Source of the DNA: Lepas anatifera
Taxonomy: Eukaryota; Arthropoda; Thecostraca; Lepadidae
Assembly (NCBI GenBank): GCA_034440635.1
Contig: JAOTON010000767.1
Span: forward strand, 496,001 to 560,000
Reading direction: 5' to 3'
DNA length: 64,000 nt
The notes under the pieces were generated by a model. The model made no database searches. It saw only the letters and a list, made by a program, of their open reading frames with translations, and was not told the origin of the DNA. This document shows positions 13,211-39,858 of this stretch, in pieces. The position numbers were made by a program, and so were the translations under genes. Within the stretch, counting starts at the first letter, position 1. The number at the start of each line of letters is the position of its first letter.

Positions 13211-13218
13211 GGTATTGC

Positions 13219-15661: not shown

Positions 15662-15665
15662 TTAA

Positions 15666-16624: not shown

Positions 16625-16628
16625 TTAA

Positions 16629-17642: not shown

Positions 17643-18299
17643 CTCAGTACCAGGGGCGTAGGAACGGTTTGAAAAGTGGGGGGCCAACCTTAGAGGGGGC
17701 CCGCCTCAAGGGGGCCCCAGTCCACGGGGGCCTATAATTTTAAAAATTTTAGATAGCTCGTTTAGTGTAATAAGGCATGCATGCACACAAGGATGACAAT
17801 GTATGGAAAATTGAGAAATTAAATTTTTTCCCTATGATTTCGAGTTGTACCTATTATGATGTAATAAATAATAGTAAAACGCCAAAAATTTTTTTGTTTT
17901 TTACCTAGACCCTTTTCAAATACGAAATACATTTTTAAGCTTTTTGTGGGGATTTCAATCATTTTTTACCACGAGCACGTTTTTTATATTTACAGATGCT
18001 TAGGCCCTTTTCATTACATTTACAAAATTAAGAACTGCTTAGAAAACTACAGACAGTGCTTTGATACCAAATAGCCTCACTTCGCTATGCCTAATCAACT
18101 TGTATTTGCTTATTTAATGACGAAAATGGGAATATTTATGTAGGTTATTACTGATCTATTCTTTCCATCATTAGAGATTGATTTAGGTAAAGGCTGATCA
18201 CAATAAATACGCCTAGCTATATTTCGATGGCTAAAATGCAGAGTTCCAGCATGACTGCAAGTGCAATGTTGGTACTTGATGGCCAGCTTTGTAATGCCG

Positions 18300-18490
18300 A
18301 GGAGGTGTGAGCATGGTGTTATAGTGGTTCGCAACCCTGCTTTCCACGCGACCAACCCGGGTTTAAGGCACGGCAGATTCCTTGTGCAAGGAGCAATTTG
18401 ACTCCCAAGAAACCCCTCCAACGGGGAAAGAGTTGGCGACGCCATATAACCCTGGCATCGAAAGACGTCGCGCCTTTCGATGGCTCAGGG
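18300..18490 (+). repeat. tRNA-derived SINE inside L1
   Basis: The plus-strand copy has a tRNA-like head (GGTGTTATAGTGGTTCG as A box, CCCGGGTTTAAGG near the B box) followed by GAGTTGGCGACGCCATATAA, the shared SINE 3' block. The head differs from the other copies, so the family has more than one tRNA-like 5' part. No clear flanking duplication was found. Confidence 0.7.
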
Positions 18491-18689
18491 ATGACTGTTG
18501 CTCGGCATTTAGTGCAGGGTCCGTGTCCGATTCATATTTTGTGTTGGGATTGATATGGAATGGAGTTTGATTGGGCCCAGTTCTCGGGACTCATTTGGAA
18601 ACACTCGGGTAGTAGGTTCCTTGGCTTTGTTACGAAGCGCTCCTCCTCCAGGGGCTTGCAGGCAGCGTATTACCGAACTTGAACGTTCC

Positions 18690-18821
18690 CAGACAAGCTA
18701 TCGGGGCCGTTTGGGTTTCTTGTTCTATATTACAGTTGCTGATATTTGTATATTCGTTGCGGGGCCCACCTCAAAAGGGGGGGCAGTATCCCCCCTCACC
18801 CCGGTTCCTATGCCTATGCCG
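18690..18821. repeat. Internal direct duplicate of the L1 right terminus
   Basis: About 130 bp, from the ACAAGCTATCGGGGCCG block to GGTTCCTATGCCTATG, repeats the last about 135 bp of L1 (39715-39850) in the same orientation and with the same terminal motif. The sequence after 18821 (CCGCCCAG) is not the L1 target duplication, so this is an internal copy and not the functional end. Confidence 0.7.
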
Positions 18822-18839
18822 CCCAGGGGCCGCCAAATT

Positions 18840-19398
18840 ATCTCGGAGGGCCCCAAAGTCCAGACCATGGCTCAGGAAACCAGATCAGTCAGCTCAAGGG
18901 CCCAGACCAGTGCATTAGCTTTGGGACCAGCTTATCAAGGGACCTTACATAAGCACAACACCGATAGAAGCTCATCTCAGGGGAGCTCCAGATTCGCACA
19001 GGGTGCCAGATTAGCTTAGGGGCCCGGTTCAGCTCGGAGGTCCCCAGGTCGACTTATGTAGGGTCTCAAAACAGCTCAAGGGACTTCAAGCTCACGGATC
19101 CCAGCTTAGCTCAATGATGCTAGAATAGTTCAGAGGCCCCAGACCAGCTCAGGGCTCTTGTTCAGTACAGGCCAGCTCAGCTCAGGGGCCCAGATCGGCT
19201 GATATAGCATCTCCTCTCACACCAGCTCAGGGGCTCCATTCAAGCTCACGGCCCCAACTTAGCCCCGGGACCCTAGAAGAGTTCAAGGCCCCCATACCAG
19301 ATCAAAGGCCCCAGTTAAGTACAGCTGTACCCAGATTAGCTCAGGGCCCCAGCTAGGCTTAGGGGGTCCCAGGGTGGCTGATGTAGAGTCACAGAACA
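18840..19398. repeat. L1 satellite, left part (AGCTCAGGGGCCC type)
   Basis: This is a degenerate short-period array. Each unit contains AGCTCAGGGGCCC(A)GAT or a close variant at irregular spacing of a few tens of bases. It is interrupted by L2 at 19399 and resumes at 39100 with the same phrases, such as CAAGCTCACGGC. Open frames through it are low-complexity and not credible genes. Confidence 0.8.
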
Positions 19399-19406
19399 CA
19401 GTGGCG

Positions 19407-20797
19407 TAGCCAGGATTCGGCCAAGGAGGGGGTCCGACTACCGTCGGGGGCCCCAGGCCGGGGTTCCCTTAGCAACCGGGCCCATCTCCTATATCTTTTG
19501 TATAGTATTTTAACATTATAACATTCACACGAAGGAAATTTTGTTATGGCTTTTTAAGCATTCATTCTTATTTTGTTTATAGCTTGGTTTTTCAATCCGA
19601 CCAAGTGTTGGTAAACTAAGGTCACCAAATATTAAGGATGGCCCATAACTTATATGATAGCGTGGCTATAATAACAGCTTTGAGCCATATTTCGGGAAGT
19701 TCAATGTTGATGCACGCATGATGTTAAACCTGAGTCTACCTCAATTCATTCGGGTAATCAGACATGAAGTTATTGGAGGTCAGTCGTTTTGAGTACGAAG
19801 AAATGATCTACAGGAAATGATTAGCAATTATTTCCCGGTGTCGAATCCATTAACTCTTTAATAAGGAAATTTCCAAAGAAACGAAAAAAAACGAATAAAG
19901 ATACAAGGGATATGGGAGTGTGTACTGAACGTTACATAACCTCTATTCCGTCGACAGATCATGTTGAGATCCATTTACTTTCTTACCCTTGCTATCTTGT
20001 AAACGAGCAAATTACCAAGACAAAAGGCGCCCAAGATATCTATCGCTTTGGCTCACTCTGTTATTGTTATTTTCAACCTTGCATACCTATTTTTTTTTGG
20101 GATTATGCTCATTAATTTCTGTCATTACCCTAGTTTGTCTGGTTTCCTACGAAAATATTGGAAAGTTGTTTATATCAGAATATTTAGGAATGTATTTATT
20201 GGTGGTAAGCTACTCGATTAAAAATTGACTAGCCCTGTTTGATTTGCTCTTATGATAAAATTAGATTAATTTTTGCCCTTCCTTCGATAATGGTGCCTGA
20301 TCGACATGTTTCAATTTGTCCCTTTTAGTACGCAATAGGGGTAGGTACATTTTTTTCCGAGGCATATGATTTTGAAAATTTTTATTTGAGCTCTGGAGCC
20401 ACCTAACACCAACACTTGGCGGCACTCACAAATATAATTTTCGGCCGCCCTCCCGATTATATCTCAGATGTATAACGAGCTGAACATCAATGGCACTCTG
20501 CCGTTTCGTGCCGCAGTGAGAGCTATTTTATTGTCACGGTGATAGCGATTCTTCTTAACACATGTCATTTCATGGTTAGGTTTTTAAGTGTCTCGCTACG
20601 TCTAGGGCTTTTATTTTATTTTCCAGGTATTTGTTTTAGGAAAATTTACTGTTTTTATGTCTCTGAGCTTGTTGATAGATTTCCTTACGAATGCGTGAAT
20701 GACGGTGTGATGAGTCTTGTACCCACTTTTAGATTTCGTTTTAAACAACTTGACGTGTCGAGTGAAAAACCATGTGAATGGATCTCAGACAAAATAA
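19407..20797. other. AT-rich interior of L2, no gene recognised
   Basis: The short frames at 19912-20228 and 20539-20877 contain no known domain. About 20560-20820 ends in CAGACAAAATAAAC followed by an (ACT) repeat. This resembles the 3' end of a non-LTR retrotransposon with a microsatellite tail, but no reverse-transcriptase sequence is present to confirm it. Confidence 0.35.
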
Positions 20798-20820
20798 ACT
20801 ACTACTACTACTACTACTAC
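20798..20820 (+). repeat. (ACT)n microsatellite
   Basis: Seven to eight uninterrupted ACT units follow AATAAA-like sequence. It may be the tail of a retroelement. Confidence 0.9.
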
Positions 20821-20829
20821 CAAGGGGTC

Positions 20830-21342
20830 CCTGAGAGTGATTCACGGCGCCTGTTGATCAAAACTGGGGGCCCCTGAGAATCTCTCGGGGCTCCTGAGAT
20901 TAGTTATCGGCAGCACCTCTGAGACTAATTATTGGGCCCCCCAGATTTGCTCTGGAGGGGAGGGGCTGAGACTGACTATTGTGACCATCCAGATTAGCTA
21001 TTGGGGTCCCCTGAGGCTGTCTTTGGGGTGGGGGAGGGGGCTGGGAATGACTTCCGACAGCCCGCTGAAACTTACTCTAGGGCACCCCTGAGACAAACAC
21101 CCGGGGGGGGGGTGGAATCACCTCTGAGACTGTGTCTTTGGCGTTCCTGAGACTGACTCTCGGAGGCTCCAGATTAGCTCTCGCGGGCCTAAGGCTAACT
21201 CTGGGCCCATGAAACCAAAAATCGGGAGCACTTCTGGAAATTACTCTCAGAACCCTGAGATTAACTCTCGGATGTCTCTGAGACTGACAACCGGGAGCCC
21301 TCTGAGACTAACTTTTGGGAGCTCCCTGAGATTGACTCTTGG
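20830..21342. repeat. L2 satellite, left part (CTGAGACTGACTCTCGGGG type)
   Basis: This is an array of diverged units about 25-40 bp long built on CCCCTGAGACTGACTCTCGGG. It is cut by L3 exactly inside a unit (ACTCTTGG, the L3 target duplication) and resumes at 36692. The continuation across the insertion shows that the satellite predates L3. Confidence 0.88.
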
Positions 21343-21364
21343 CAGGGGCGGATCCAGGGGGGCC

Positions 21365-24300
21365 GCGGGGGCCGCGGCCCCCCTCGCCGGTAAGGCGCCC
21401 CCTCGGCACTAAGGCGCCCCCGGGGTCCGCCTCCATTTGCTCCACATTTGCATGCCAAACGGAAATACTGGCGTCCCCTGGTAATTCCGCTGCATGCAAA
21501 TACCACATTTTGACAACCTGCCCTGCATCACTGGCGCCCCCATGGTGCATCATTGGTGCCCTTATTTCACTCCGCCGACGCCCCCAAGCCTCTTCCACCT
21601 CTTGAAATCCCGCTATATATTACCGGCGCCCCACTCTTCCCTACGGGCGCCCCTATCTTCTAGAGATCCGCTCTATATCACTGGCGCCTCCATGGTGCAG
21701 CATTGATGTCTCGTTTTTGCTCCAGCGGCGCCCCCACGCGGCACTGTGGGCGCCCCATCTTTTGGAACCCCGAATGTACCACCGGCGCCCCCATTGGGCA
21801 TCATTGGTGCCTTCGTTTCACTCCACCGGCGCCCCCAAGCCTCATCGTGGGCTCTCCCACTTCTTGGCACCCCACTATAAACTATTGGCGCCCCAATCCT
21901 CACCACGGGCGCCCCCACCTTCGGAAAATCCGGTCTATACCACTGGCGCCTCCATGGTGCAGCATTGATGTATCGTTTTTGCTCCAACGGCGCCCCCACG
22001 CGTCACTGTGGACGCCCCACCTTTTGGAACCCTCATGTACCGCCGGCGCCCCCATTGGGCATCATTGGTGTCTTCTGTGTACTTCACCGGCGCCTCACGC
22101 TTCACCGTGGGCGCCTCTGCTTTTTAGAGCCGCTCGTTACCATCGGCGCCCCCGTGGTACATCATTGGTGCCTTTTTGCCGAATTGGCGCCCCCGTGCCT
22201 CAATGAGGGGGCCTTCACCCTTTACCAGCCCGTTTTATACCAGTGGAGCCCCCACTCTCTCTCCCCACTCCCCACTACGGGCGCCCCCACCTTCTAACAA
22301 TCCGCTCTATACCAGTGGCTCCTCCATGGTGCAGCATTGATGTCTCGTTTTTGCTCCAACGGCGCCCCCACGCGTCATTGTGGGCGCCCCATCTTTTGAA
22401 ATCCCGAATGTACCACCGGTGCCCCCATTGGGCATCAATGGTGCCTTCGTTTCACTCCAACGGCGCCCCCAAGCCTCTTCCACCTCTTGACATTCCGCTA
22501 TATACTACCGGCACCCTACTCTTCACTACGGGCGCCCCCATCTTCCAAAAATCCGTTCTATACCACTGGCGCCTCCAAGGTGCAGCATTGATGTCTTCTG
22601 TGCACTCCATCGGCGCCCCCACGCTTCACCATGGGCGCCTCTGTTTTTTAGAGCCGCTCTTTACCATTGGCGCCCCCGTGGTACATCATCGGTGCCTTTT
22701 TGCTCAAATGGCGCCGCCATGCCTCTTTGAGGGGGCATTCACCTTTTACCAGCCCGTTTTATACCAGTGGAGCCCCCACTCTGTCTCCCCGCTACGTACT
22801 ACTGGATCCCCACTCCCCACTACGGGCGCCCCCACCTTCTAACAATCCGCTCTATACCACTGGCACCTCCATGGTGCAGCATTGATGTCTCGTTTTTTGC
22901 TCCAACGCCGCCCCCACGCGTCACTGTAAGCACCCCATCTTTTGAAACACCGCATGTACCACCGGCGCCCCTATGGTGCATCATTGGTGCCTTCGTGTCA
23001 CTCCACTGGTGCCCCCAAGCCTCTTCCAACTCTTGACATCCCGCTATATACTACCGGCGCCCCACTCTTCACTACGGGTGCCCACATCTTCTAGAAATCC
23101 GCTCTATATCACTGGCGCCTCAATGGTGCAGCATTGATGTCTCGTTTTTGCTCCAGTGGCGCCCCCACGCATCACTGTGGGCGCCCCATCTTTGGAACCA
23201 CACATGTATCACCGGCACCCCCCTTGGGCAGCATTGGTGCCTTCGTTTCACTCCACCGGCGCCCCCAAGCCTCATCGTAGGCTCTCCCACTTCTTGGCAT
23301 CCCGCTTTCAACTATTGGCGCCCCAATCCTCACCACGGGCGCCCCCACCTTCGGAAAATCCGCTCTATACCACTGCCGCCTCCATGGTGCAGCATTGATG
23401 TCTCGTTTTTGCTCCAACGGCGCCCCCACGCGTTACTGTGGGCGCCCTACCTTTTGAACCCTCATGTACCACCGGTGCCCCCATTGGGCATCATTGGTGT
23501 CTTCTGTGTACTTCACCGGTGCCCCACGCTTCACCGTGGGCGCCTTTGCTTTTTAGAGCCGATCTTCACCATTGGCGCCCCCGTGGTACATCATTGGTGC
23601 CTTTTTGCTCAAATGGCGCCCCCATGCCTCACTGAGGGGATCTTCACCTTTTACCAGCCCGTTTTATACCAGTGAGCCCCCACTCTCTCTCCCCGCTATG
23701 TACTACTGGATCCCCACTCCCCACTACGGTCGCCCCCACTTTCTAACAATCCGCTCTATGCCACTGGCGCCCCCATGGTGCATCATTGGTGCTTTCGTTT
23801 CACTCCACCGGCGCCCCAAGCCTCATCGTAGGCTCTCCCACTTCTTGGCATCCCGCTATAAACTATTGGCGCCCCAATCCTCACTACGGGCGCCCCCACC
23901 TTCGGAAAATCCGCTCTATACCACTGGCGCCTCCGTGGTGCAGCATTGATGTCTCGTTTTTACTTCAACGGCGCCGCCACGCGTCACTGTGGGCGCCCCA
24001 TGTGCTGAAACCCTGCATGTACCACCGGCATCCCCATTGGGCATCATTGGTGTCTTCTGTGCACTCCACCGGCGCGGCGCCCCCACGCTTCACTGTGGGC
24101 ACCCCCTGCTTTTTAGACCCGCTCTTTACCTCTGGCGCCCCCATGGTGCATAATTGGTGCGTTTCTTTTTAATATCAAACGGCGCCCCCATGCCCCATTG
24201 AGGGGGTCTTCATCTTTCAACAGCCCCTCCTATACCACCCGAGCCCCACTCTTATGATGCATTATTGTTGTCTGCTTTTAGCTTTATGGGCGCCTTCCCC

Positions 24301-25565: not shown

Positions 25566-26697
25566 CTTCTCATTAGACCAAGTCGTCAGAAAATAATTTC
25601 CGATTTCGAATTAAGAGTACTGATATTATTATGTCATGATATGTTGTAAACATGATGCAAGCAAAACAAATCCGATGAATTTAAGTTTAATGGGCGCGGA
25701 ACGGCCTTTTCTGAAGGCATGTTTTCAGTAGGATGGCGTTGAAGTCTCCATTGACTTCACAATGCATTGTTGTCAGTATCCTTGCAGCACGGTAACTTGG
25801 TTACCAACATCAAAACGTTGGATCTTTTTGTAGCCAGGCGGATGCACTGGATACCTGGGCAGCTGCCGAGAGGCCAAGGCACCCTCTGGTCCCTTCCTGG
25901 TCACCCCTTGTATTGAAGATAGGGGGATTTCTCGACTTTTGAACCTTAACAACTTTGCCAATTGTTGACGTTTAAAGGGAATGTGGCGCCTTGGTCGAAT
26001 CCTGGAATTTAGTGTAATTAGGGATACTTTTAGCCAAAAATCATGGAACCATCCCTGATTTCTCTGAAAAAAATTTACAATAAGCTCAATATTTTTATTT
26101 TTAAAATGCGCCTCTAGGGGAAAAAATAAATATCTCCCTGTAGATTATGTCATGATGTGGTAACCACTACCATATTCAATAGGCTTCAAAGGCTTCGATT
26201 AGCTTATACTCACCGTGACGTCAGCATATGTCGGCACACCAACAACTGACAACTGTGGCCTGCTGCTCAGGGTGCATGAGGGCTACATTTCAGGTAGGTT
26301 TTAGCTTTTATCTACGGAAGCTTCGAGCAGAGCTGCAAAAAATCTCAAATCTGTCGGGCACTTTCGAAAAAACCTCCAAATCTGTCGGGTGGTTAGGATA
26401 GGACTATTAAAATTGTCTAAAACCCATTCAATTGGTAAAATGTTCCTACTCTTTTTCCACATTCTTAATAGAAAATACTAAAATTAGCATAAAAAACTTC
26501 AAGTTTGGCACCAATGGATATCATTATCCTTATTTTTGTGCTCTGATCCTTATATGTGTGATATCCTTATTTTTCGTGCTCTGAAGCCGCCTATGGAAAA
26601 TCTAAGTGGAATGACACAAGTCTATTAATTTTCAAAACTCTAGAACTGAGACTGTTCTTCGGGTTTTCAATTATCAGACACGCTCAGGAAATTAAGG

Positions 26698-26916
26698 TTA
26701 TCGGCAGAAACCTATAACAAATTGAATACCGAACCACCAATTCCCATTTTCTGGAGTCACCATTGGTAAAGGAAATTTATTATTGGATGTAATTTGAGAT
26801 TTGTGGACGTACAGCATACAAATAGTGTGTGTCAAAGTCAGCTCGACTGGGTCTTGAATAAGACTCAGTCTTGAATTCAGATGATTTAGGTCACAGGTGG
26901 AAATATACAATAACAT
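26698..26916 (-). CDS. Conserved 72-codon frame in element ZF copy 2, function unknown
   Basis: This is the counterpart of 8677-8895 in copy 1, with the same length and only a few substitutions. No domain is recognised. It is listed because both copies keep it open; it may equally be chance. Confidence 0.2.
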   Translation of the reverse strand: MLLYISTCDLNHLNSRLSLIQDPVELTLTHTICMLYVHKSQITSNNKFPLPMVTPENGNWWFGIQFVIGFCR

Positions 26917-27911
26917 GAAAAGCAGCTCCCCTTTTTCAGTCCTCTGCAGCCGCCATTGACAAAAAATGCTGCACTAGAATGAGAATAAGTGATATTTTGT
27001 TATTATGTTACATAGTCCAGCCCAGAATACTTAAAAAATATAGTTTGCAATGGAAGAAAGCTGACCTGGTTCCCATACCATGCGGTTACTTATGCCAGCT
27101 TCTGCAGATTTTCATGATTTCAGTTTTTTGGAGGTGGGAGGGGGTAATTTGGAAGGAACCCCCAAAATTTATATATGGATTTTGCTCTGATGGCCAGACA
27201 AACAAGATTGGAGGGGTACGTTTTTGATATTCGAAAGTGTTTTTAAGGATCATGGCTACTTGTAGTTGAATACAAACATGTACTATTAGCTTTCCATGAC
27301 TTTAAATGCATGTTTACATGAAAAATCCTAAATTTTGAAGCTGTTGGCTATCTCAAAGTTTTTCATGCATTGCCGTGCTCATTTCCATGAGGGTACGTGG
27401 TTTAGGATCTGAAGTTCATGAGGCTAATAAATAACCTTAAGTCAGTTAGATAGTAAATGTCAAATAAATATCATGTTTCTAAGGAAGTTAAGAGTAAAAG
27501 GAATGAGTAAAGGTAAAGGTTGCACTAGGCTGTGTTTTTGTTATATCTTTGTCCCCTTGACATAGATCATAGGCATATTTAGGTAAGTGAATAAAATGAA
27601 ATAGGAGAAATAGTTTGGTACTTAAAACTCAAATTAATGTGGAAAGGTGAAGAGTTTTGTTTCTTTGGCATCTACAAATCCACTGATGAAGGTATGCAAC
27701 TTTTGTGGTTAATTCTGGACAAACAGGCATTGGATTTAAAAGAAGATGGAAGGGAAAATCAAATGTTTTAGTCTAATTTGACCAGTCTGCTGGTAAAATT
27801 CATTTTTCCCTTATTTATATCATTTAAAATTATTGATCAACAGTGAGCATAACATACTGTGTGGAAATAAATGTAAGCTGCCGAAATTACAACGAACACC
27901 ACATCACTTAC

Positions 27912-28140
27912 TTCTTTGTTTTCTCCCCACACTGTTCTGATCTGCCCGCTGTTTGATCCATGCTTCAAAACGACCTCCTTGGCCAAAACCACTGTTCCTG
28001 AACTTGCAGGGCAGCCCAGAATGCTTGATTCGCTGATGCTCCTTAAAAAAACGTTTCTCGCCAAAATACCCACATCCCTCAAATCCACATTTAAGCTTGA
28101 CACGGGACGGTGGAAGGGGCTTCAGCTTAATCGGAGCCAT
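27912..28140 (-). CDS. Putative zinc-finger exon of element ZF (partial)
   Basis: The minus-strand frame starts MAPIKLKPLPPSRVKLK, followed by a C2H2-like finger: Cys at residues 18 and 23, His at 35 and 40 (spacing C-x4-C-x11-H-x4-H). A basic tail follows. The frame meets AGAA|GTAAGTG, a strong splice donor (GTAAGT at 27906-27911 on the minus strand), and would otherwise stop a few codons later. So this may be a 5' exon of a spliced element gene encoding a DNA-binding N-terminus, or a host exon captured by the element. The downstream exons were not identified. In copy 1 the finger is frameshifted. Confidence 0.45.
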
Positions 28141-28330
28141 TTATCAGCCCTTCAACTATGACGATGAAATCCAGGCTCAACCAGTTTACTCAAGATGTAT
28201 ACCAAAGTAATGCAAGAGAAAAATAATCAAAAACACAACCAGGGCCTTGGCCTTCGCCATATCCACAAGGCAACACACCAAACCGCAGGGCTGCTTTTCT
28301 TCAAACCAAAAATACCTTTTACACCGGCTT

Positions 28331-28368
28331 TGCCGCAAGGGCGCTGTTCAAACAGCGCCCTTGCGGCA
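28331..28368. repeat. Perfect 18-bp hairpin in element ZF copy 2
   Basis: TGCCGCAAGGGCGCTGTT and its exact complement are separated by CA. A second hairpin (28441-28498, arms CGGCCTGTCGGGCC) follows within about 70 bp and carries the CTGTCGGGC motif of the element termini. This subterminal structure may be a transposase-binding region. Confidence 0.88.
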
Positions 28369-28970
28369 GCGTTGAGCGTACTTCCAAACGAAGGAAACGA
28401 AGGAAAAAAACTGTTTTGCCTGTCGCCTTTACCTTTACGGCGGCCTGTCGGGCCAAGCTGTCGCGTGCTATGGAATACAAATCGGGCCCGACAGGCCGGT
28501 GAAGGAATTTTTCCAGCAGAGGATTTTCTGGTTGACGTTTAAAAGGCCCTCTGTGCATAACGCCCTCTATTCAAAGGTTCCTCGATTCATAAGTCCCTCG
28601 AAAAGACCCTCTGTGCATAAGCCCTCGATTTTCCATCGGTTCTTGCCGCACACTGGCTTGATATGGGAGAGGTGCAAATTCATGAAAAACTTGTTGAGTG
28701 AAAGAGGTGACAATTATAATATTGAGTTTTTTTAGAACAAAAAATATTTTCTGCTTCCTTTTAAGATTTTTTTCTCACAGATTGTAAGATCTGTCGCAAG
28801 ACCATACCGTGCCCTAAAATCTGTCGGGCACTTTATGACCCGAGAGCCCGACTTTTTGCAGCTCTGTCTTCGAGTTTCAAGACAAATGAGATATTGAGTA
28901 CCGGGTTTTCCGGCATGCTTTACAACTTGGCTATCTTAGTCAAAATCACGTTATAAAGGTGCCAAATTCT

Positions 28971-29130
28971 CTTTAACAACGCACCAATCTTTTGAATTAT
29001 ACGGTGTCGCCAACTCTCATCCTGTTGGGAGGGATAGTCAGGTTGTCCTCATTCACTGTCCTTGCCGGGGATTGGAACCCGGAACCTATGGTGCAGGACA
29101 CAGATGTGCTGCCTACTGCAACACAGCACC
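28971..29130 (-). repeat. tRNA-derived SINE in left foldback arm
   Basis: On the minus strand: B box GGGTTCCAATCCC, the shared GAGAGTTGGCGACACCGTAT block and a TTAAAG-type tail. It is the mirror copy of 29945-30117 in the other arm, so the SINE was in the ancestral arm before it was duplicated or converted. Confidence 0.8.
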
Positions 29131-29308
29131 CCCCCTTCACACTTAATAACTTTGGCTGGTCAGCTGGTTGAGCTTTTTCTCTAGTTGAGCACCTACTCAG
29201 ATTTGGGTCTGGCTACGAGCGTGGTTTGTATGTGAGACCTTGGAGTAAGACAGTGTAGTAATGTAATAATCAAATGATCAGACTGAAGGCTGAAGGTATG
29301 CTATCCTG

Positions 29309-29773
29309 TGCTCACTCTGAGCCTTCCTGCCGAGGAGATCAAGATGTTCCAGACTACTTCCATGGAAGTTGTTGACTTACTCGTTCATGGTCGGGGCGTG
29401 GAACTGTGTGTGAAGGAGGTAACGGCCGGTTCCGAGGCTGTGTTCGAATAGACATGAGGGATGGGTTCATCAGGGCTAGGCTTACTCACAGGCAGATGAC
29501 CGGCAAAGTGAGGCCCGAGAAAGACCACGCAATGGTCTGCTTATAGAAGCAATTGATAACAAGTAAAGCTTATGTCTAATGTACTACGGAGTCGATGTGT
29601 ATTTTGTGATGTGTGTAGGATATTTGAGTGCCAGGTCATCTGCAAATATATGATGTTGATTAAGACATACTCACAGCATTAAGCTTGCGTCAAACAAATA
29701 AATACGGCAAACAAATCTAATTAATCTTCAATCCGGTTTCTGTCAGAACTGTGTGTCTCAAAATGCCCAAGTC
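29309..29773. other. Unique spacer of the foldback element
   Basis: About 465 bp between the two arms, without a recognised gene or repeat. A short coding frame is not supported. Confidence 0.55.
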
Positions 29774-29944
29774 GCAGGATAGCATACCTACAGCCCCCAG
29801 TCTGATCATGTGGTTATTACGTTACTACACTGTCCTACTCCAAGGTCTCACATACAAACCACCCTCATAGCCACACCCAAATCTGAGTAGGTGCTCAACT
29901 AGAGAAAAAGCTCAACCAGATGACCAGCCAAGGTTATTAAGGGT

Positions 29945-30117
29945 GGTGAGGAAGGAGAGAGTGCTGTGTTGCAGTAGGCAGCACTTCTGTGTCCTGCACC
30001 ATAGGTTCCGGGTTCCAATCCCCGGCAAGGACAGTGAATGAGGACAACATGACTATCCCTCCCAACAGGATGAGAGTTGGCGACATCGTATAATCCAAGA
30101 GGTTGGTGCGTCGTTAA
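29945..30117 (+). repeat. tRNA-derived SINE in right foldback arm
   Basis: On the plus strand: GTGTTGCAGTAGGCAGCA (A-box region), GGGTTCCAATCCC (B box), GAGAGTTGGCGACATCGTAT (shared 3' block) and GCGTCGTTAAAG tail. It mirrors the copy in the left arm. Confidence 0.8.
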
Positions 30118-30971
30118 AGGGAATGGGGCACCTTTATAACGTGATTTTGACTGACAGCCAAGTTGTAAAACATGCCGGAAAACCCGGTACTCAATATCTT
30201 ATTTGTCTTGAAACTCGAAGCTTCCGCAGATAAAAGCTAAAACCTACCTGTAATGTACCCCTCATGTACCATAAGAAGCAGGCCACAGTTGTCAGTTGTT
30301 GGTGTGACGACATATGCTGACGTCACGGTGATTATCAGCCAATCGAAGCCCTTAAAGCCTATTGAATATGGTAGTGTTTACTAGATCATGACATCATCCA
30401 CTGGCAGATATTTATTTTTCCCGTAGAGGTGAATTTTAAAAATAAAAATATTGAGCTTATTGTACTATTTTCAAGGAAATCATGGACAGTTCCATGATTT
30501 TCCGCTTAAAGTATCCCTAATTACAGTAAATTCCAGGATTCGACCAAGGCGCCACGTTCCCTTTAAACGTCAACAACTGCCAAAGTTGTTAATGTTCAAA
30601 ACTCGAGAAACCCCTATCTTCAAAACAAGAGGGTGACCAGGAGAGGGCCAGAGGGTGCCTAGGCCTCTCAGCAGCTGCCCGGGTATCCAGTGCATCCGCC
30701 TGGCTACAAATAGATCCGACGTTTTGATGTTGGTAACCAAGTTACCGTGCTGCAAGGATACTGACAACAATGCATTGTGAAGACAATGGAGACTTCAACG
30801 CCGTCCTACTGAAAACATGCCTTCAGAAAAAGCCGTTCCGCGCCCATTAAACGTAGATTCATCGGATTTGTTTTGCTTGCATCATGTTTGCAACATATCA
30901 TGAGATAATAAAATTACTACTATTAATCCGAAATCGGAAATTATTTTCTGACGACCTGGTCTACTCCTCAT

Positions 30972-31620: not shown

Positions 31621-34563
31621 AATTGCCCCGAGTTCTTTTAATGTATGCTTTGGGTATCGATTGGTGTCATTTTGCTCCGTTACCACGCAGGATCCCCCAG
31701 GGTGCATTCATGCCCATCCGATGTGTGTGGTCGTGTGCCTGTCCAATATGTGGTTGTGTCGTCTTTTGCAACAAGAATATGCTACGATGGAATAAAGGGG
31801 ACTGGTAAAAGTAATGTTTCTTGTGAAGCAAATTTTGAGCACATATACCAATATCCCTTAAATGTGTTTAAAAAAACATTCCGGATCTATTGATAACCCT
31901 ATAAGCGGTTGACTTCGATCATTTAATTATTTTGCCGAGGTTTTTTTCGCAGTGCCACTAATGAAAGGCTGTGTCCAGACAGCAATGCGAAATTCCCACG
32001 TCATCTGTGTAAGAAAAACATTGAGGGCTCGGCAGGAGGCACCTGCATAATTTTGGTTGCGTCTTCTCCCACATGTTTGTAAACAGCAAAAAGTTTCGCC
32101 TTATGTAGAATATTATGGATTTATCACTATCCACTCTGCGCAGACAGGGTAAACTGCAACGACTGCTTCGCAAAATCTCCAACGGCCGTCTCTGCGTAAA
32201 TTCTGCTTCAAAACGTAATCCAGGTAGAAGTTGCCCTGTTTACTTGTTGCTTATTTAACTAGAGGCACTTTGAGAAATTCTTCCTTTTCTTGTCAATGTG
32301 TTTTTTTAATCGGCACTTTTTCAAATGGCATCACAAATACGCAAAATTAGCATCACAAAGATCCATGATACCAAAGGCTGATCCCCAAATGGTAGTCTGA
32401 CCGCCCCCGGAGACTTCGCTTCCCTCTTATCGAAATCCTGGATCGTCCATGTACCCAGCCCTCTCGGTTGTTGATCAGTGATAGATAAGCTCGGTCAGTG
32501 TTGATCAGGTGCAATCTCTAACATCATCACCTTGGATAGGTTGAGTTTGCGGTCGGTTGATAGAGCTGGAAAATGCCTAGGTGATCGGGGAAGGAGAGTT
32601 TATTGGGTAATGGAACTATAGTAGGGAGGAACAGAAACGTAGTAAAGGGGTGGAGCGGCTAGCACAGTCGCATGAGAGGCACCCGAAGGGAAAAGATCGC
32701 GCGAAGGGGCAGCCGGGCTACGCCAATCTATGACCAACCGTAAACCTCGGGGACCAGCATGACTTGCTGTTACAAGCGTGACCCTCTGCGGCAAGCGACA
32801 CCCTATATGTGACCGTCAGGGTCCCCAAGGGGCAGAAGAACACTCTTTAATCGGGTGGGTCACCTGTTTTCAACAGGGCCCTCTGTGACAAGCATGACCA
32901 GTACATCATTCCGTGGTCGGCAGGGCCCAATGCAGTCAGAAGAGCCTTCTGTCTGCCACCGAGAAACCGAGAATGCCCTCTGTGCCAGCGGGGATGCTGT
33001 GACAAGTAGGGCCGTCTACGGTCAGCAGGTCCTTTGGGACCAGGAGTCTCCTCGTTATCAATAGGGCAATCTTAGGTCAACAGGGATCTCTTTAACTAAC
33101 AGATCTTTCGGTCGCAGTCAGGGCCATGTCTTGCCAGCATGCTTTTTTGTCGGACAGGGCGATACCTCCGGTGACCATAAGAGGACTCTGTATCGTAAAT
33201 ATATATATATATTTGGAACTGAACGCACGGTCTATAAAAAGGGCACTCCGGGACCAACAGGTCTTTCCGTGCCCAGTAAGGCCTGCCATATTCTTGTGGA
33301 AGGTCATGAGGTGACCTGAGGTCTAATCGAGAAGCCGCTGGGCCCCCTGCATCCAGGCGGGTAACCATCCATGACGGTCTTTGACTGCTGTGAGTGGGAC
33401 TGGTGGGACCCTTAAATCCATTAGGATCTAAATCTGCCAGTTAGCGAACCCCTGGAGAAAGCCGGAAAGTGTACAAGTGTACACTGTGAACGACTTTGAG
33501 TTCACTTTGGTCAGTCGAGGGTCCTATGTGGCTGCCATAGCACAGCGAAGACAGGCCAACGGCCAAAATCTGGTTATAGCTAGTTATAGTTCCTGCAAAA
33601 ATTCAGGTGGATGCCGTTGAGGGAGACACAAACACATTTTTCCGAGTTGATCGCTGATGTGGAGTATCCCTAAACTGGGCCTTTGCTTGGGGCCGTATTC
33701 TGATGCCGAGAGTACATAAGAATGGGCGCACGCACGTCGATATTTTATTCTGATTTCCAGCCTGCACCCACACTGCGCAGGTGGGGTCAAATCAGCATTG
33801 TGATCGTAGTGCGCACATTAGATCAGTATGCTGATATTCTGCGTAGACTAGGTCGGTACTGGTCCCTGTGCATCCCGGGTATGCTTGTCCTACGTCGAGC
33901 GTGGCTACGCACGGAAGAAGGTCAAAATACCACATTGGAATACGACAAGTTGCTTGTCTCAGTCAAGTCTTAGGAGGGCATTATATTAGAATATAGCCTT
34001 AGAAAGGTTTACAATAACTGGGGTCTTGAAGTAAGCCAAGGTCCATGAACTTAAGTAATAGATCCTTCGTGGCTGGCTAGCTCAGATTGAAGGGATCTGG
34101 GATCACTGCTCTGACCTAGTGGTTTATTAGACCCTTATGGCTAGTTAAGGCCCTGTGTGCTAATCATCATCATATAAGCAAAATCAGTAGTCCATGTAAC
34201 CATCATGGGGCTTCCCAAAGTGTATCGGGATTTGATCTGACATGTCCTGTAGAAACCTAATCCCCAATGACAAACATGGGCTCATTGAACGAGACGGGCC
34301 TATTCTAAACATTTCTTGGTCTTCTTCAAACTGTTTAAGACTTCTGAAGATAATTTTGATCATTGATTGGGGAGAAAATAGTCCCCATGCAGTCTCCCCG
34401 GGTCCCAAAGTGTCTTTACTAACCGTTGGTTCCAGTGCACAATGAAATAAACGCCAAAGAGATACATTCACTTTTTACCACTCCTGAGATGTATTTTAGA
34501 TCCATTCAAAGCCATGATCTTCCCTCATTTTTTTAAAAAGAAAATATGAAACTAATTACCTCT
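31621..34563. other. Interior of L3, no gene recognised
   Basis: The short frames near 31613-31893 and 32600-34471 have no recognisable domain. About 32740-33110 shows weak periodicity of phrases like CAGGGCCCTCTGTGACAAG, possibly another decayed satellite. A short (TA)n tract lies at about 33198-33215. Confidence 0.45.
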
Positions 34564-34567
34564 TTGA

Positions 34568-36540
34568 CCCTCCGGTTTTTCGGGCGGCAAGAAAAAACGG
34601 CGACGCGAAGCGCCGCCGTACTTGGCACACCTTATTCTTGATCGATTCCGCAAGAATCCCCCAAAAATTTTGGCTTGGGTCATCTCAGGTCAGGTCATCA
34701 GTGCAGGTTAAGTGACCTTACCTCAAAAAATGTTGAAGGTGGCATAAGTAGGAAATGGGTGAATCTATCGGATTGAAACTTATAGCACATAATGGCCCCA
34801 CCGAGTTCTCCAAGAAGTTCCGGGATTTTTCATATCGATGACATAAGGTCAAATACGGACCATGACCTCTCCATTGGAAATACAGAGGAAACAGAAAATG
34901 GTTTGTATTTGTGTAGATCAAGGTGATAATACCTTCATATTCTCCAAATCGAAGTATCTTAGGTCCCTTTTTAGGTTCATGTCGCAATTTTTGACCTGTG
35001 ACCTCTGAGAGATCATCCGAAGCTACTTAAGCAGTTTTGAGACTTAGGTCAATAACTTTGCATGAAATGATGATACAACTTTTATCTTTATACCATTGCG
35101 TTTGGATTGCTATTGCCAGTCGATTGATAGGCATATGGACTATGCTAAGTCAAAAAGTGACTTTGACCTGACCTGAAGTCAGGTGATTTGTGTTTTGACC
35201 TAGCCCGCGCCCCCACCGGGGGTCCGGCGCCACCTTCGCCCCACCGGGGGGGGCCATCGATGGCCCCCCCTCTAACTCCGAAAATATGGGCGTTAGCGCA
35301 AATCTGCCAAGTGCAATAGAAAGCTCGCGTGAATTCAGTAAGAAATTACTTCGCATGTTTTAGTGCTCAGGTCAATGGTTTGACCTCCAGAGGTCAAATT
35401 AGGTCAAGATCGGCTATTTTCACTCAAATATGCAATGATTAAGCAAACTGGGCATAACTCTTATGTCATTAGAGCTATTGAGGCCTGGTAAAGTACATTT
35501 GATAGCAAATTGCCAGTACTTTTTCCGCTATGTGGAACTAAAGACCTCCCGCCAGTGGTTTGACCGCCAGAGGTCACCTCGTGACCTAATATGACCTGAG
35601 GTCACGAAAGGTCAAAAAGTGACCTTGCCGTATATCAAATGAAAGCCAGTGACAAGACAAGCACGATGGTGTTTGTTTCACCGCTCTAGCTCAATTAGGT
35701 CAAAAGTTATTGTCAAAATACTGTTTTTGACCTCTGGTGACCTTGGATGACCTTGGAAAAGTCAAAGGGCAAATATGACCCCTGGGATCCGTGAAAGGGT
35801 GTCCAAAAACGTTGTTCTGAGCAGTCTGAGTATTTGCAATCATTTTTGTGGCTTTTATATCATGAAATAGCTTTTCCCCATGCTTTTCCAATGGGAGAGG
35901 TCGCCTCGTGACCTGACCTCAGGGCACGAAATCGAAAAATCCCGGATATGCACCTTGTAGACCCTGGAGGGGTCATAAAGTGTAGGAAGTTTCAAATCGA
36001 TCGACTTTCGAAATGTAGCTCTTACAGAGCTCTAAAGGTGAAGTGAGGTGACCTTGGTTGACCTCGTCTGGTGACCTGACCTTGGGTGACCCGGGGTAAA
36101 AAATTTCAGGGATGATGGGAAAATGATGCCGTGAGAGGTAGAGCCCTCAACCGCGGTGCTGCGCCTCGTCGTTTTTCTGCTATCCCGGAAAAACCTTGAG
36201 GGGGGCTATCGATGGCCCCCGGTGGGGCGAGGGCTAGTATGCTCATATTATACATCATTCGATTCGCCGTGACGAGAGAGAGCGAACAGTGTCTACAAAA
36301 TTATTATAACTCAACGCTGTCAGACGCTAGACTTTGCTCAAAATGCCAACTTCTTTGACCTGCCATGACCTCAATGTTGACCTGAGCCAAAAATTGACTG
36401 ATAGTGTCTTCGTGAATTTGTATGAGCTATCCACCAGGGTTCGCGTTTTTTCGCTATCCTGCATAGGGGACGAGTTCGAGAGGGGGTGTTCAAACACCCC
36501 ACCAGGGCGAAGGTGACTCGGAGGCCCACCGGGGCGCAGG
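34568..36540. mobile_element. TTAA-type piggyBac-like element, copy B (split by an insertion)
   Basis: The body aligns with copy A (15666-16624) from the CGGCAAG...GCGCCGCCGTACTTGG block to the right-end GTGTTCAAACACCCCACC. TTAA follows the right end at 36541-36544. The left flank reads TTGA at 34564-34567, so one flank appears mutated. The right terminus seems duplicated (two CACC..GGGGCG motifs). It is interrupted at 35200 by a 1.03-kb insertion that copy A lacks. It contains very dense AGGTCA half sites and no coding capacity. Confidence 0.72.
35204..36233. mobile_element. 1.03-kb insertion flanked by CTAG duplication
   Basis: The flanks CTAG at 35200-35203 and 36234-36237 duplicate a site present once in copy A (GACCTAGTATGG), which serves as the empty site. 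The ends begin CCCGCGCCCCCACCGGGGG and, as complement of the right end, CCCTCGCCCCACCGGGGGCC. Both ends continue into CCATCGAT(G/A)GCCCCCC. They resemble the TTAA family termini, yet the duplication is CTAG. The interior is AGGTCA-rich and non-coding. Confidence 0.75.
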
Positions 36541-36691
36541 TTAACTGATTCAGTTCACAAAAATGCTTTAAATGGGTAAAGAACATAAAATTTGGCGCCC
36601 CCAGCCGGCCTAAAAATGGCGCACCCTGGCCATGAAAGTGGCGCCCCCCAGCGCTGCGGCCCCCTAGCGAAAATTCCTGGATCCGCCCCTG

Positions 36692-39000
36692 ACTCTTGGG
36701 GCCGCTTATACCAAAACTCGGGGGGGGCACAGCCTGAGGCAAAATCTCGAGGGCTCCCAAAATTACCCCCTCTGGGGCCCCCTGAAACCAGCACTCTGCA
36801 GATCAAATTGGACTAACTCTCGGACCCCCGGATTAACTCTCGGAGCCACCTGAAAGTAAATATTGACTCCTGAGAGAGAAACCCGTGAGACTATGAGGGC
36901 CCCCTGAGACCGACTCTTGGGGTGCTCTGAGACTCACTCTTGTGGTTCTTTGAGACAGACTCTCAGAGGGACCCCGAGACCGAATCTCGGGGTCCCCTAA
37001 GACAGACTCTTGGGGTCCCCTTGACCGACTCTTGGGGTTCTCTGAGAATGACTTTAAGGGGCCCCCTGAAATAGACTGTTGCAGGGCCCTGAGAACCACT
37101 CTCTGGGGGGCCCTGAGACTAGCTCGGCCCCCCTCCTCTGAGACAGACTCCCGGGGCCCCTGATACCGACTTTTGGGGCCCCTGATACCAACCCTCAGGG
37201 GCCCCCGAAATCTACTTTCGGGGGGCCTTGAGACCGACTCTCAGGGCGGGGGCCGTGAGGCCGACTCGGGACGCCCTGAGAACGAATCTTCAGGGGCCCC
37301 TGAGACTAACTCTGGGGGCCCCGTGATCAGAGAATCCTTTGCAGTGGTTCAGATTGGCCCAAGGGGTGGGGGTCTGCGGACGCCTAGGGCCCCCTTGGCT
37401 ACACCACTGCATCCACACTTTCGGGGGGCCCTCCGAAATCACCATTTGGAGACCCCTAAAATAATTGCTCCCCCTAAACCAATACTCCGTAGCCCCTTGA
37501 TACCGATGCCCGGGGGTCCTAAGACCAAGCTCGGGGTCCCACATAGATCAGGCTCAGGGGCACCCTTAGACCCATGCTCGCGCTTTTCTCAGGAGTAACT
37601 CGACACCGATGTTCCGGGGCCCTCAAGATCAATATTTCGAGCCCCCCCCGAGACTAATGCTTGGTACTCTGGAGCCCCTCGATGCCGATGCTCAGGGGTC
37701 CTGAACCCAGGTCTGGGGGCCCCTGGGACCAAACTCTGGGTCTCATGAGGCCAATGTTCGTGCTTCACTCATGAGTCCCTCGATATCAATAGTCGGGGGC
37801 ACCCCGAGGGGATCCTGAACCCCTGAGACCAAGCTCGGGGGCCCCTGAGACCAAGCTCGAGGGGACCCTGAGACCAAGCTCGGATGCTCCCTGAGACCAA
37901 GCTCGAGGGCCTCCTGACACCAAGCTCGGGGGTTCCTTGAGACCAAGCTCGAGACCCCGTGAGACCAAGATCGAAAGGCCCGTGAGACCAAACATCGAAA
38001 GACCCATGAGACCAAGCTTGCCCCCTGAGACCAAGCTTGGTTGTCCCCTGAGACCAAGCTCGGGGCCCCTGAGACCAAGCTCACGGGCCTCCGAGATCAA
38101 TATTCGGTATTCCAGAGCCCTCGATACCGATGATCGGGGCCCCCCTGAGACGAAGCTCGGAAGACCCGTGAGACCAAGCTCGGGGCCCCTGAGTCCAAGC
38201 TCTGGGGCACCCTGAGACCAAAATCGAAAGGCCCGTGAGACCAAGATCGAAAGGTTCGTGAGTCCGAGCTCAGGGGGCCCCTGAGACCAAGCTCAGGCGT
38301 TCCCTGAGACCAAGCTCGGAGGGCTCCTGACACCGAGCTCGGGGCCCCTGAGACAAAGCTCGGGGGGGTGCTGAGACCAAGCTCGGTGGCCCTCTGAGAC
38401 CAAGATCAGGGCCCCCGAGACCAATGCTCATGTTTTCCAGTGCATACGGTCAGCCTTATGCATCAGATGCCCTCGGATGCCCCCTGAAACCAAGCTTGAG
38501 GGCCCCTGAAACTAAGCTCGGGGAGAGGGGGGCCTGAGACCAAGCTTGGGGACATCCCTGAGACCAAGCTCGGGGGTCCCCTGAGACCAAGCTCGGGGGG
38601 TTATCTGAGACCAAGCTCGGAGGGCTCCCTGACACCAAGCTCGGGGGGCCCCTGAGACCAAGCTCGGGGGCCCTGAGACCAAACTCGAAAGGCCCCTGAT
38701 ACCAAACTCGGGAGCTCCTTGAGACCAGGCTCGGAGGGCCCCCAGACACCAAGCTCGGGGCCCCTGAGACCAAGCTCAGGGGCCCCTGAGACCAAAATTG
38801 AAAGGCCCGTGAGACCGAGCTCGGGGAGGAGGGGCCCTGAGACCAAGCTCGGGGGCCCTGAGGCCAAGCTCGGGATCCCCTGAGACTGGAGTGCAGGGGT
38901 CCCCCAAGATCAATATTCGGTACTCTGGAGCCCTCGATACCGATTATCGGGGGCATCCTGAGACCAAGCTCGGGAGGCCCCTCCCCCACCGAGACCAAGC
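36692..39000. repeat. L2 satellite, right part (GAGACCAAGCTCGGGGGCCCC type)
   Basis: This continues the array from 20830-21342. It begins with GAGACTGACTCTCGG-like units and becomes dominated from about 37.8 kb by CCTGAGACCAAGCTCGGGGGC units of about 25-30 bp. A 68-bp stretch (37342-37409) reproduces the L2 right-terminal sequence within the array. The minus-strand frames of 113-180 codons (37743-38998) are repeat translations open in more than one phase, so they are not annotated as genes. Confidence 0.9.
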
Positions 39001-39099
39001 TCAGGGGCCCCCGAGATCAATTTTTGTGTTTTTAGTGCATAAGGTCGGCCCAAGGGGGTCCGCGGACCCCAGGGACCCCCTCCCCTGGCTACACCACTG

Positions 39100-39740
39100 T
39101 CAGAACATCTCAAGGGACCCATTCAAGCTCACGGCCGCCAGGTCAGTGGCTGTAAAGCCTTATAGGGGTCCCAGACCATCTCAGGGGCCCTCAGTTCAAC
39201 ACAGAGGCCCATATTAGCTCTGATGACCTGATAAGCTTAAGGGCCTGGATCATCCAGGGGCCCCTTGCCGGCATATTTGGGGTTTCAGAACAGTCCAGGG
39301 TTTCAATTAAAGCTTATAACCCAATTTCAAAGCAGGGGCCCTATTCCTGTGCAGGGGCCTCAGATAAGTTTAGGGTCTTCTGTGCATCACAGGGGATCCA
39401 GATTAGCTCAAAGGACAATATTAACTTACGGTCCCAGCTCAGCTCAGGGGCCCCCCAGGTCGGTGGATATAGGTTTTGGCCAACTCACGGGGCCCTGTTC
39501 AAGGTTACGGCTCCTAGCTCAGTTTAGGCATCCTAGAACAGTTCATGCTGCCCAAACCATCTCCGGGGCGCTCAGTTCAGCTCAAAGAGCCCAGATTAGC
39601 TCGTATGGTATCAGAGGCCAGTTCAGGGGCCCCGAGAAGCTCAGGGGCCTTAAAATAAACTCATATGACCTCAACTTAGTTTAGGGGCACAGGTAAGTTT
39701 AACGGGGTTCCGGGGCAAGCTATCGGGTCAGTTTCAGTTT
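39100..39740. repeat. L1 satellite, right part (AGCTCAGGGGCCC type)
   Basis: This resumes the array cut at 19398, with phrases such as CAAGCTCACGGCC, CAGATTAGCTC and CAGTTCAGGGGCCCC. It leads directly into the L1 right terminus. Confidence 0.8.
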
Positions 39741-39858
39741 CTCGCTTGATATTACAGTTGTTAATATTCTTACCTCCGTTGCGGGGGCCCATCACAGAAA
39801 AGTGGGGGGGGGGCAGTGGCTCCCCTGGCCCCCCGGTTCCTACGCCTATGCTCAGTAC

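Follow-up and report, generated by a model that had tools for sequence, protein, structure and literature searches.

Six inverted-repeat DNA elements nested one within another in Lepas anatifera, with inner nests that recur elsewhere as whole units

Some 30,000 letters of Lepas anatifera DNA resolve into six stacked transposon-like elements. They form a nest of inverted-repeat DNA elements (L0>L1>L2>L3>FB>ZF) that fills positions 12198-41898 of the window, the 64,000-nucleotide stretch analysed, and a second branch, L3>P1>P2, stands beside the main stack (Table 1). We consider it likely that two composites, L0(L1(L2)) and L3(FB), already existed before they came together in this nest, and that transposase acting in trans moved each of them as a whole. 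A preliminary description had seen a single stack, five deep, with L1 outermost; it missed the P1 branch and the longer repeat, L0, to which the L1 flanks belong.

Table 1. Elements, insertions and arrays in the window (positions in the window; duplications as left/right copy)
Feature	Position	Setting	Description	Duplication
L0	12198..41898	outermost	7.5 kb excluding nested elements; ends GTACAGTC[AT]GTTGCGAAAGTATCGTTCC	
L1	17651..39850	within L0	hAT-like; from ends and window scan	CTCAGTAC/CTCAGTAC
L1 tandem array, left part	18820..19398		resumes 39108-39706; L2 insertion point inside	
L2	19399..39099	within L1	hAT-like; from ends and window scan	now ACAGAACA/TCAGAACA
354-bp insertion	20467..20820	own L2 copy	(ACT)n tail, retroposon-like	
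L2 23-bp array, left part	20813..21342		resumes 36700-37353; L3 landing site inside	
L3	21343..36691	within L2	hAT-like; carries FB and P1	ACTCTTGG/ACTCTTGG
FB	25574..30963	within L3	long inverted repeat; arms ~1.19 kb, 466-bp centre	now CTTCTCAT/CTCCTCAT
ZF	26328..28866	FB left arm	hAT-like	GCTTCGAG/TCTTCGAG
P1	34559..36540	within L3	TTAA-type relative, piggyBac-like ends; left end eroded, left limit approximate	
P2	35204..36233	within P1	1,030 bp; CCC-type ends	CTAG
Second ZF	8309..10841	outside nest	full copy	exact AAATAAGG

An unbiased scan that covered the entire window and sought 14-bp inverted ends (up to 2 mismatches) flanked by 8-bp repeats (up to 1 mismatch, 80-25,000 bp apart) recovered the end/octamer pairs of L1, L2, L3, FB and ZF without being given their locations, and the coordinates and sizes originally assigned to these five hold. 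The sizes of L2 and L3 after removal of inner elements do contain later private insertions, the 354-bp insertion and P2, respectively. In total the scan returned 52 pairs, 36 of them minisatellite-array artefacts and 3 located in the FB arms. When the window was dinucleotide-shuffled 20 times, each shuffle gave 0-5 pairs (mean 2.1).

In the animal's own 1.04 Gb genome, insert-free copies of the L1, L2, L3, FB and ZF sites carry a single octamer. From these empty sites, the octamers at every one of the five levels are target-site duplications, as had been proposed for a nest of DNA transposons. Each genome search scored the 40 best candidates, and the resulting counts are not population frequencies. 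The L0 site empty of L1 was spanned by 40/40 of the best scored copies. The preliminary description had raised the concern that the flanking octamers might belong to a longer duplicated segment; the L1 flanks do lie within one, L0, and CTCAGTAC is still a real duplication because it stands only once in the aligned L0 copies that lack L1 (four copies, three exact and one with one change). The corresponding site in L2-free L1 was spanned by the 40 best scored copies, with TCAGAACA in all four that were read, and removing L2 restores the register of the host L1 array (best of 151 shifts). Likewise, the FB-free L3 site was spanned by the 40 best scored copies, with CTCCTCAT in 4/4 read; removing FB restores the register of its host array (top score of 209, with one other shift tied). 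The ZF-free site, with a single GCTTCGAG, was found in the FB right arm, and 12 further FB loci, representing 8 places, have it empty as well. The L3 octamer has 5 exact occurrences within the 1,192 bases of array around it, and the excision register in the 23-bp array ranks 8 of 47. We accept the L3 insertion because L3-free genome copies run through the site, and not on array register: in 7/7 L3-free L2 copies the sequence is continuous across it, with a single ACTCTTGG in the five read.

The paired termini also occur together as single elements. The end pairs of L1, L3, FB and ZF recur elsewhere with octamers of their own; both L2 ends recur too, yet every L2 copy seen sits within L1. Single FB copies have an exact 8-bp duplication in 3/5 cases (one is shifted, and in one the right end was not found), and genome copies of ZF have an 8-bp duplication in 5/6. 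The second ZF in the window differs from the nested one by 2.3% substitutions.

The limits of L0 come from its other copies. The match to the C350 copy has its left limit at window position 12197/8 and its right limit at 41898, and 39 of the 40 best scored right-end matches end at window 41896-41915, the 40th being the window's own copy. The inverted ends are clear and were read in several copies. We recognised no target duplication beyond TA in the window, C350, C1298 or C1521, and because L0 thus has no clear target duplication we are less certain that it spread by transposition. Pfam scans detected no domain and no transposase in any of the six frames of 17651-21343 and 24700-36700, and no domain in the L0 stretches 12197-17000 and 39859-41898; positions 17001-17650, 21344-24699 and 36701-39858 lay outside the scans.

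We then counted copies that span the junctions between neighbouring elements. Among the best 40 scored, own copy included, L0/L1 and L1/L2 were each spanned by 40 and L3/FB by 5, whereas L2/L3 and FB/ZF were each spanned by the own copy only (1/40). The L1 flanks are L0 sequence in all 40 best scored junction copies and in 5/8 fetched copies of L1(L2). Among these eight, the duplications at the L1 ends are exact in 6/6 with both ends read; the right end of L1 is absent from the fetched stretch in the other two. The octamers are GTAATGGT, GTAGTCAA and CAGGTGAC, plus CTCAGTAC three times within L0, and in C1057 homology ends at the L1 tips. Because different exact 8-bp duplications flank L1(L2) at several sites, L1(L2) changed place on L1 ends with L2 as cargo. 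The octamers around L2 itself are shared: the left one is ACAGAACA in 16/16 composite loci read (14 places including the own), and the right one is TCAGAACA in 5/7 composites, the L2 right end not being found in the fetched stretch of the remaining two.

L3(FB) behaves in the same way. Exact duplications flank the L3 ends in three of its four other copies (GCGGTCGT, CCCTAAGC and ATGCATAG), C1734 having no matching octamers, and in four copies the homology reaches no further than the L3 tips. Since exact 8-bp duplications occur at L3 ends elsewhere, L3(FB) changed place on those ends with FB as cargo. Four other L3(FB) places were read at the FB site, and in three of them the octamer is CTTCTCAT. 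P1 is present in all four other copies. P2 is missing from all four (site read in three) and from the P1 relative at 15666-16624, which has an empty site. That relative is flanked by TTAA on both sides and matches P1 at 81-83%; P1 has TTAA on the right side only. The 354-bp insertion, at which we saw no target duplication, is missing from 7/7 L2 copies (L010-L016; junction read in three).

The following course is likely. L2 would have entered an L1 first and L1(L2) then spread; one L1(L2) copy would have landed in an L0, after which L0(L1(L2)) spread in turn. FB would have entered an L3 to give L3(FB), with at least five copies, one of which entered the own L2. The latest layer comprises the 354-bp insertion, ZF and P2, found in the own copy only, and ZF and P2 could have arrived before or after L3(FB) landed. 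The composites L1(L2), L0(L1(L2)) and L3(FB) are non-coding and would have been moved by transposase in trans. Such transposases, and the excision of whole nests, are suggested by general hAT-like mobility; no excision was seen. Two orders in this course are likely from the sequence comparisons: L2 was probably already in L1 when L1 entered L0, and FB was probably already in L3 when L3 landed in L2.

The first of these orders bears on an alternative in which L1 entered L0 first, L2 entered that L1, and L1(L2) later left L0 for other sites. In a tree of L1(L2), copies outside L0 have deeper branches and greater diversity (1.75%, against 1.03% within L0), and C1057, outside L0, is the deepest branch; both features speak against L1 having entered L0 first. 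The tree offers that alternative an exception, the L0-embedded C325, which joins a copy from outside L0 (65% support), and the inner nodes of the tree are weak. It covers 12 composite places, only 3 of them outside L0, with two of the four L1-without-L2 loci as outgroup. L0 status came from fetched L1 flanks for C1298, C350 and C325, from the L0/L1 junction for C1443 and C1454, and from the right end alone for C1263; C1935 and C1551 were also taken in, and C1127 and C401 (L0 status), C84 (shorter) and C1240 (interior) were left out. We regard this alternative as improbable, and composite transposition on L1 ends would stand either way.

Similarly unlikely is that the own locus was the donor, FB having entered an L3 already in L2 and L3(FB) having jumped from there to the four other sites ahead of the ZF and P2 insertions. 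Shared-site counts among the L3(FB) copies are compatible with this, and ZF and P2 are indeed absent from the others. Among the five copies, however, C2088 branches first and lacks 3 derived changes present both in the window copy and in others, which means that a donor at this locus must have shed copies at least twice; a priori, moreover, it is one copy in five. Composite transposition on L3 ends holds under a donor locus too.

We find it very doubtful that the nests spread by segmental duplication or recombination. The missing clear target duplication at L0 and the C1734 copy of L3(FB), which also lacks one, would fit, but homology does not run past the element tips, those of L1 in C1057 and those of L3 in four copies, and exact, differing 8-bp duplications surround L1(L2) and L3(FB) elsewhere. 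Least credible of all is a plain series of five local insertions, outermost first and with nothing preassembled, as originally described: every pair has its own octamer and, among the 40 scored, the own copy alone spans the L2/L3 and FB/ZF junctions, but the L0/L1, L1/L2 and L3/FB junctions recur as units with other flanks and other exact duplications, and composite copies have mutated octamers in common, the recurrence counting against such a series unless the own locus was the donor of all three.

Assembly from preformed composites may be one instance of a broader, more tentative picture of layered lineages. Elements of different families could repeatedly capture one another, the captured nest becoming the mobile unit that expands, and larger nests would arise where smaller ones fuse (an old L1, a young L1(L2), then L0(L1(L2)), with L3(FB) in parallel); the capture of L2 might have triggered a recent burst of L1.

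Several further ideas were examined and dropped. FB arm divergence (1,188/1,189 bp, 7.3% mismatches, 7.7% K2P) set against the 2.3% of ZF does not serve as a clock for an older outer element; it characterises the FB family and does not date this insertion, because other FB copies lie at a median of 0.5% from the nested one (14 loci, up to 5.7%). With ZF copies at ~2.2% (median of 6), above the FB value, family distances alone cannot rank the layers. Three insertions lie in arrays, yet roughly half or more of each host is array (a coordinate estimate), and we make no case for arrays as landing pads. A suspected relationship of the L2/X arrays to the L1 array (z of 2.3 forward and 6.6 in reverse for L1) was set aside as well for lack of specificity, unrelated L3 arrays reaching z values up to 5.8. 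A candidate tRNA-derived SINE in L1 near 18310-18450 gave no Rfam or tRNA hit and aligned poorly.

A transposon nest is commonly taken as a stratigraphic record in which the outer elements came first, and the preliminary description had taken the nest order as a relative chronology. "Outer is older" is unsafe here because inner pairings recur elsewhere as whole units. With two- and three-level nests recurring in this way at many sites, nest depth alone can neither count nor order the insertions at a locus. Shared octamer mutations (ACAGAACA, CTTCTCAT) provide a cheap test of inherited versus local nests, and whether captured cargo helps or hinders the amplification of a non-autonomous element becomes testable.

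The relative of P1 is presumably akin to piggyBac-like TTAA elements, as it has TTAA flanks and ends that start with CCC; P2 differs from them in its CTAG duplication, and no transposase domain was found. L1, L2, L3 and ZF have 8-bp duplications in the nest, the window and genome copies, and short inverted ends that match at 16/16 positions in L3, 14/14 in ZF and 15/16 in L2; L1 is weaker, with 3 mismatches in 17. Only two of the five nest octamers (L1 and FB) fit the Ac-type consensus nTnnnnAn. We call these four elements hAT-like and non-autonomous, and not proven hAT members, because the scanned stretches contain no transposase domain. In the accessible part of one account, hAT terminal inverted repeats are 10-25 bp long, and non-autonomous hAT elements resemble these four in their short inverted ends and 8-bp duplications; L1(L2) at ~6.5 kb and L3(FB) at ~11.8 kb (by coordinate subtraction) exceed the 2.5-5 kb given there (PMC8961557). 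FB was rejected as a hAT element on its long arms; with long inverted repeats and a target duplication it resembles foldback elements, sharing the former with Tm1 (PMC3169594), Tetris (PMC4079207) and Galileo as far as the accessible text describes them. Tetris has duplications of 8-9 bp in the portion available (PMC4079207). Unlike Tm1 and Tetris as portrayed in those portions, FB has no tandem repeats in its arms detectable by TRF (no array at 25574-26327 or 28867-30963), and its TAGACCA ends and the lack of any coding part found set it apart from all three.

Nested DNA transposons are already known, and layered composite amplification is a notable variant. We found no multi-level composite DNA-transposon families in an animal in the literature, in which subscription journals were thinly covered. 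ToxhAT is reportedly nested within a larger mobile element, the Starship Sanctuary. It is of hAT type, as L1-L3 and ZF are, but in the available excerpt it is fungal, carries gene cargo and involves two levels (PMC12506042). In Medicago truncatula, nested PIF/Harbinger-like non-autonomous elements contain internal tandem repeats, and one sequence flanked by inverted repeats and a TSD measures 21,696 bp (PMC2213677, accessible part). That nest belongs to another superfamily and is presented there as having received later insertions, and the accessible part describes no composites in multiple copies; the barnacle nest is like it in being non-autonomous, with tandem repeats within and nested insertions (PMC2213677).

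The preliminary description had read this stretch as a nest of DNA transposons, five deep. The inverted ends of all five nested levels, and the 8-bp repeats flanking them (octamers, read as target duplications), were present exactly as it gave them, and a blind scan of the window for inverted ends and flanking octamers, allowing ≤2 mismatches in the 14-bp inverted ends and ≤1 mismatch in the 8-bp flanks, recovered the same five. The scan yielded 52 pairs, 36 of them inside minisatellite arrays and 3 inside the arms of the foldback element FB, whereas 20 dinucleotide-preserving shuffles averaged 2.1 pairs (range 0-5). The nest stands, but its depth does not: one more element, L0, lies outside L1 and makes the main stack six.

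L1 flanks were common to other copies at 5 of the 8 loci fetched, and in the copy on contig C350 the homology, at 97.8-98.6%, extends leftwards to 12197/8 and rightwards to 41898. L0 carries an inverted repeat, GTACAGTC[AT]GTTGCGAAAGTATCGTTCC, at both ends; no target duplication longer than TA was recognised, and scans of 12197-17000 and 39859-41898 detected no Pfam domain. When the 40 best matches to its right end were scored, the 39 others stopped at the L0 end or ≤19 bases past it, so the insertion of L0 at this place is seen only here. A TTAA-flanked element with CCC-type ends (15666-16624) lies inside L0, is also present in the C350 copy and is 81-83% related to P1. About 5.6 kb downstream of the L0 end, an open frame (47524-48156) matches the rhodanese-domain part of the MAP kinase phosphatase DUSP10; among 18 matches the closest named one belongs to the barnacle Amphibalanus amphitrite, with 79% identity across 60% of the query, and is outscored by two unnamed proteins. 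The host is probably a barnacle or close to one.

Elements of the main stack, its second branch and the other insertions recovered in the window
Feature	Position	Ends and flanking repeats
L0, outermost element	12198-41898	
L1, in L0	17651-39850	
L2, in L1	19399-39099	
L3, in L2	21343-36691	
FB, foldback-like, in L3	25574-30963	
ZF, in FB	26328-28866	
P1, TTAA-type relative, in L3	34559-36540	
P2, in P1	35204-36233	
hAT-like element, blind-scan positive control	2722-3004	octamer GTTTAAAC, exact
Second ZF copy, blind-scan positive control	8309-10841	octamer AAATAAGG, exact
hAT-like element, blind-scan positive control	43120-43273	octamer GTCTAAAT, exact
X, hAT-like element, blind-scan positive control	44538-46890	ends CAGTGGCGGCGGAT both sides; octamer CCGTAACC, exact
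Short element (136 bp) with L3-type ends, inside X	44687-44822	flanks CATAAGTG/CATAAGCG
Palindrome (180 bp), inside X	45032-45212	

The window itself holds traces of the uninterrupted hosts. ZF breaks FB in its left arm; in the right arm the site is uninterrupted and has one GCTTCGAG. Cutting out FB restored the register of the host tandem array better than or equal to any cut within 104 bases, and the same held for L2 within 75 bases; the cut at L3, whose octamer itself belongs to the array unit, ranked 8 of 47. Beside a tandem array, both L1 and L2 repeat their own right terminus internally (18685-18818 and ~37356-37409, respectively). Because neither is followed by a matching octamer, the pairing of L1 and L2 with their outer ends is not arbitrary; the internal copies may reflect the way in which the arrays or longer elements arose. 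Outside the stack, X with its L3-type element and palindrome is a second, shallower nest. X (45574-46752) and L2 (37412-39020) have unlike ends and share the same 22-23 bp minisatellite (CTCGGGGGCCCCTGAGACCAAG); a profile built from X gave 103 strong matches in the window, 58 in L2, 44 in X, 1 in L1 and 0 elsewhere.

We then asked which junctions recur across the assembly (1,044,440,039 bases), using 200-base queries across each left junction and scoring the 40 best candidates per query, own copy included. The L0/L1 and L1/L2 junctions were each spanned in 40/40. At L3/FB, 5 candidates spanned, 14 were FB-only and 21 L3-only. The L2/L3 and FB/ZF junctions were spanned in a single candidate each, the window's own copy. 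L2 in L1 and L1 in its surroundings are therefore multi-copy units, and L3 in L2 and ZF in FB are seen in the window copy only.

Queries in which both flanks were joined and the insert removed detected the corresponding empty sites. L0 without L1 was spanned in 40/40 best candidates (97-100%), L1 without L2 in 40 scored copies (87-91%) and L3 without FB in 40 scored copies (98-99%). A single CTCAGTAC stood at the empty L0 site in 3 of 4 aligned copies, with one change in the fourth; among copies aligned or read, single TCAGAACA and CTCCTCAT stood in 4/4 empty L1 and 4/4 empty L3 sites. L2 was free of L3 at 7/7 loci (single ACTCTTGG read in 5), FB of ZF at 12 loci in 8 distinct places, and P1 of P2 in 4/4 copies of L3(FB), that is, L3 with FB inserted (single CTAG read in 3).

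Composites relocate by way of their outer ends. Both L1 ends could be read in 6 of the 8 fetched copies of L1(L2), with exact octamers in all 6: three with unrelated flanks have GTAATGGT, GTAGTCAA and CAGGTGAC, and three within L0 have CTCAGTAC. For the remaining 2, the fetched stretch covered the left end with its L0 flank but not the right end. Five of 7 L1(L2) copies showed the L2 right end, each time followed by TCAGAACA and L1 sequence. Three of the four other L3(FB) copies had exact, differing octamers (GCGGTCGT, CCCTAAGC, ATGCATAG); no octamer pair was found for the copy on C1734. For elements alone, octamers were exact in 5/6 ZF copies (one right end not found) and 3/5 FB copies (a shifted octamer in one, the right end not found in another).

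Some copies were irregular. An L3(FB) copy on C240 (L004) has an FB arm rearranged or partly inverted, and L1(L2) copies on C1127 and C401 (L119, L120) are without the L1 left tip in the fetched stretch, possibly truncated. On C1551 (L028, 1-695 and 720-3199), the composite is adjoined by another stretch with 71% similarity to the left region of L2; L2 relatives may lie side by side there. Five ZF left ends in one orientation, spaced ~4.4 kb (G000:C250:1077744-1095427), seem to form a tandem block.

The single octamer mismatches of L2 and FB are inherited. The left octamer of L2 is ACAGAACA in 16/16 composite loci read (14 distinct places, window included) versus TCAGAACA in empty L1, and that of FB is CTTCTCAT in 3 of 4 other L3(FB) places, the fourth giving no exact-string match, versus CTCCTCAT in empty L3. 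One insertion and one mutation followed by spread of the composite account for this sharing. The ZF octamer mismatch was absent at 8 empty FB sites.

In a tree built from 12 composite places and, as outgroups, two L1 copies without L2 (10.6% from the composites), a copy outside L0, on C1057, took the deepest branch. Mean L1(L2) diversity was 1.75% outside L0 (3 pairs) versus 1.03% in L0 (36 pairs), and the L0-embedded copy on C325 grouped with an outside copy at 65% support. Topology and diversity suggest that L2 would have entered L1 first, that L1(L2) then spread, that one copy landed in L0, and that L0(L1(L2)) spread in turn. For L3(FB), changes were polarised against L3 without FB and single FB copies. 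The copy on C2088 branches first, without three derived changes that the window copy shares with the other copies scored. This fits arrival of L3(FB) in the window from elsewhere; that the window locus was the donor of the remaining copies is less likely. After such an arrival or, for ZF and P2, possibly before it, the latest additions would be ZF, P2 and a 354-bp insertion with an (ACT)n tail (20467-20820), which is absent from 7/7 other L2 copies and for which no clear target duplication was found. Median distances to fetched copies were 1.8-2.1% for L1 and L2 pieces, 0.5-1.1% for L3, 0.5% for FB and 2.2% for ZF; since ZF exceeds FB, distances alone do not rank the layers.

These families would have moved in their usual way, by cut-and-paste with transposases acting in trans. 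No transposase domain was found in six frames of the nest stretches scanned; autonomous hAT partners would be expected to carry the ends CAGGGGCGTAGGAAC or CAGGGGCGGATCC. In the accessible part of the open-licence literature we found no report on an animal in which stacked composites amplify one level at a time. PMC2213677 already describes DNA transposons that are nested and hold internal tandem repeats, as well as a sequence of >20 kb flanked by inverted repeats and a TSD. FB is foldback-like, with 1.19-kb arms, and by its ends not hAT; P1 and P2 share features with piggyBac in part only. L1, L2, L3 and ZF behave as non-autonomous hAT elements do, with short inverted ends and 8-bp duplications.
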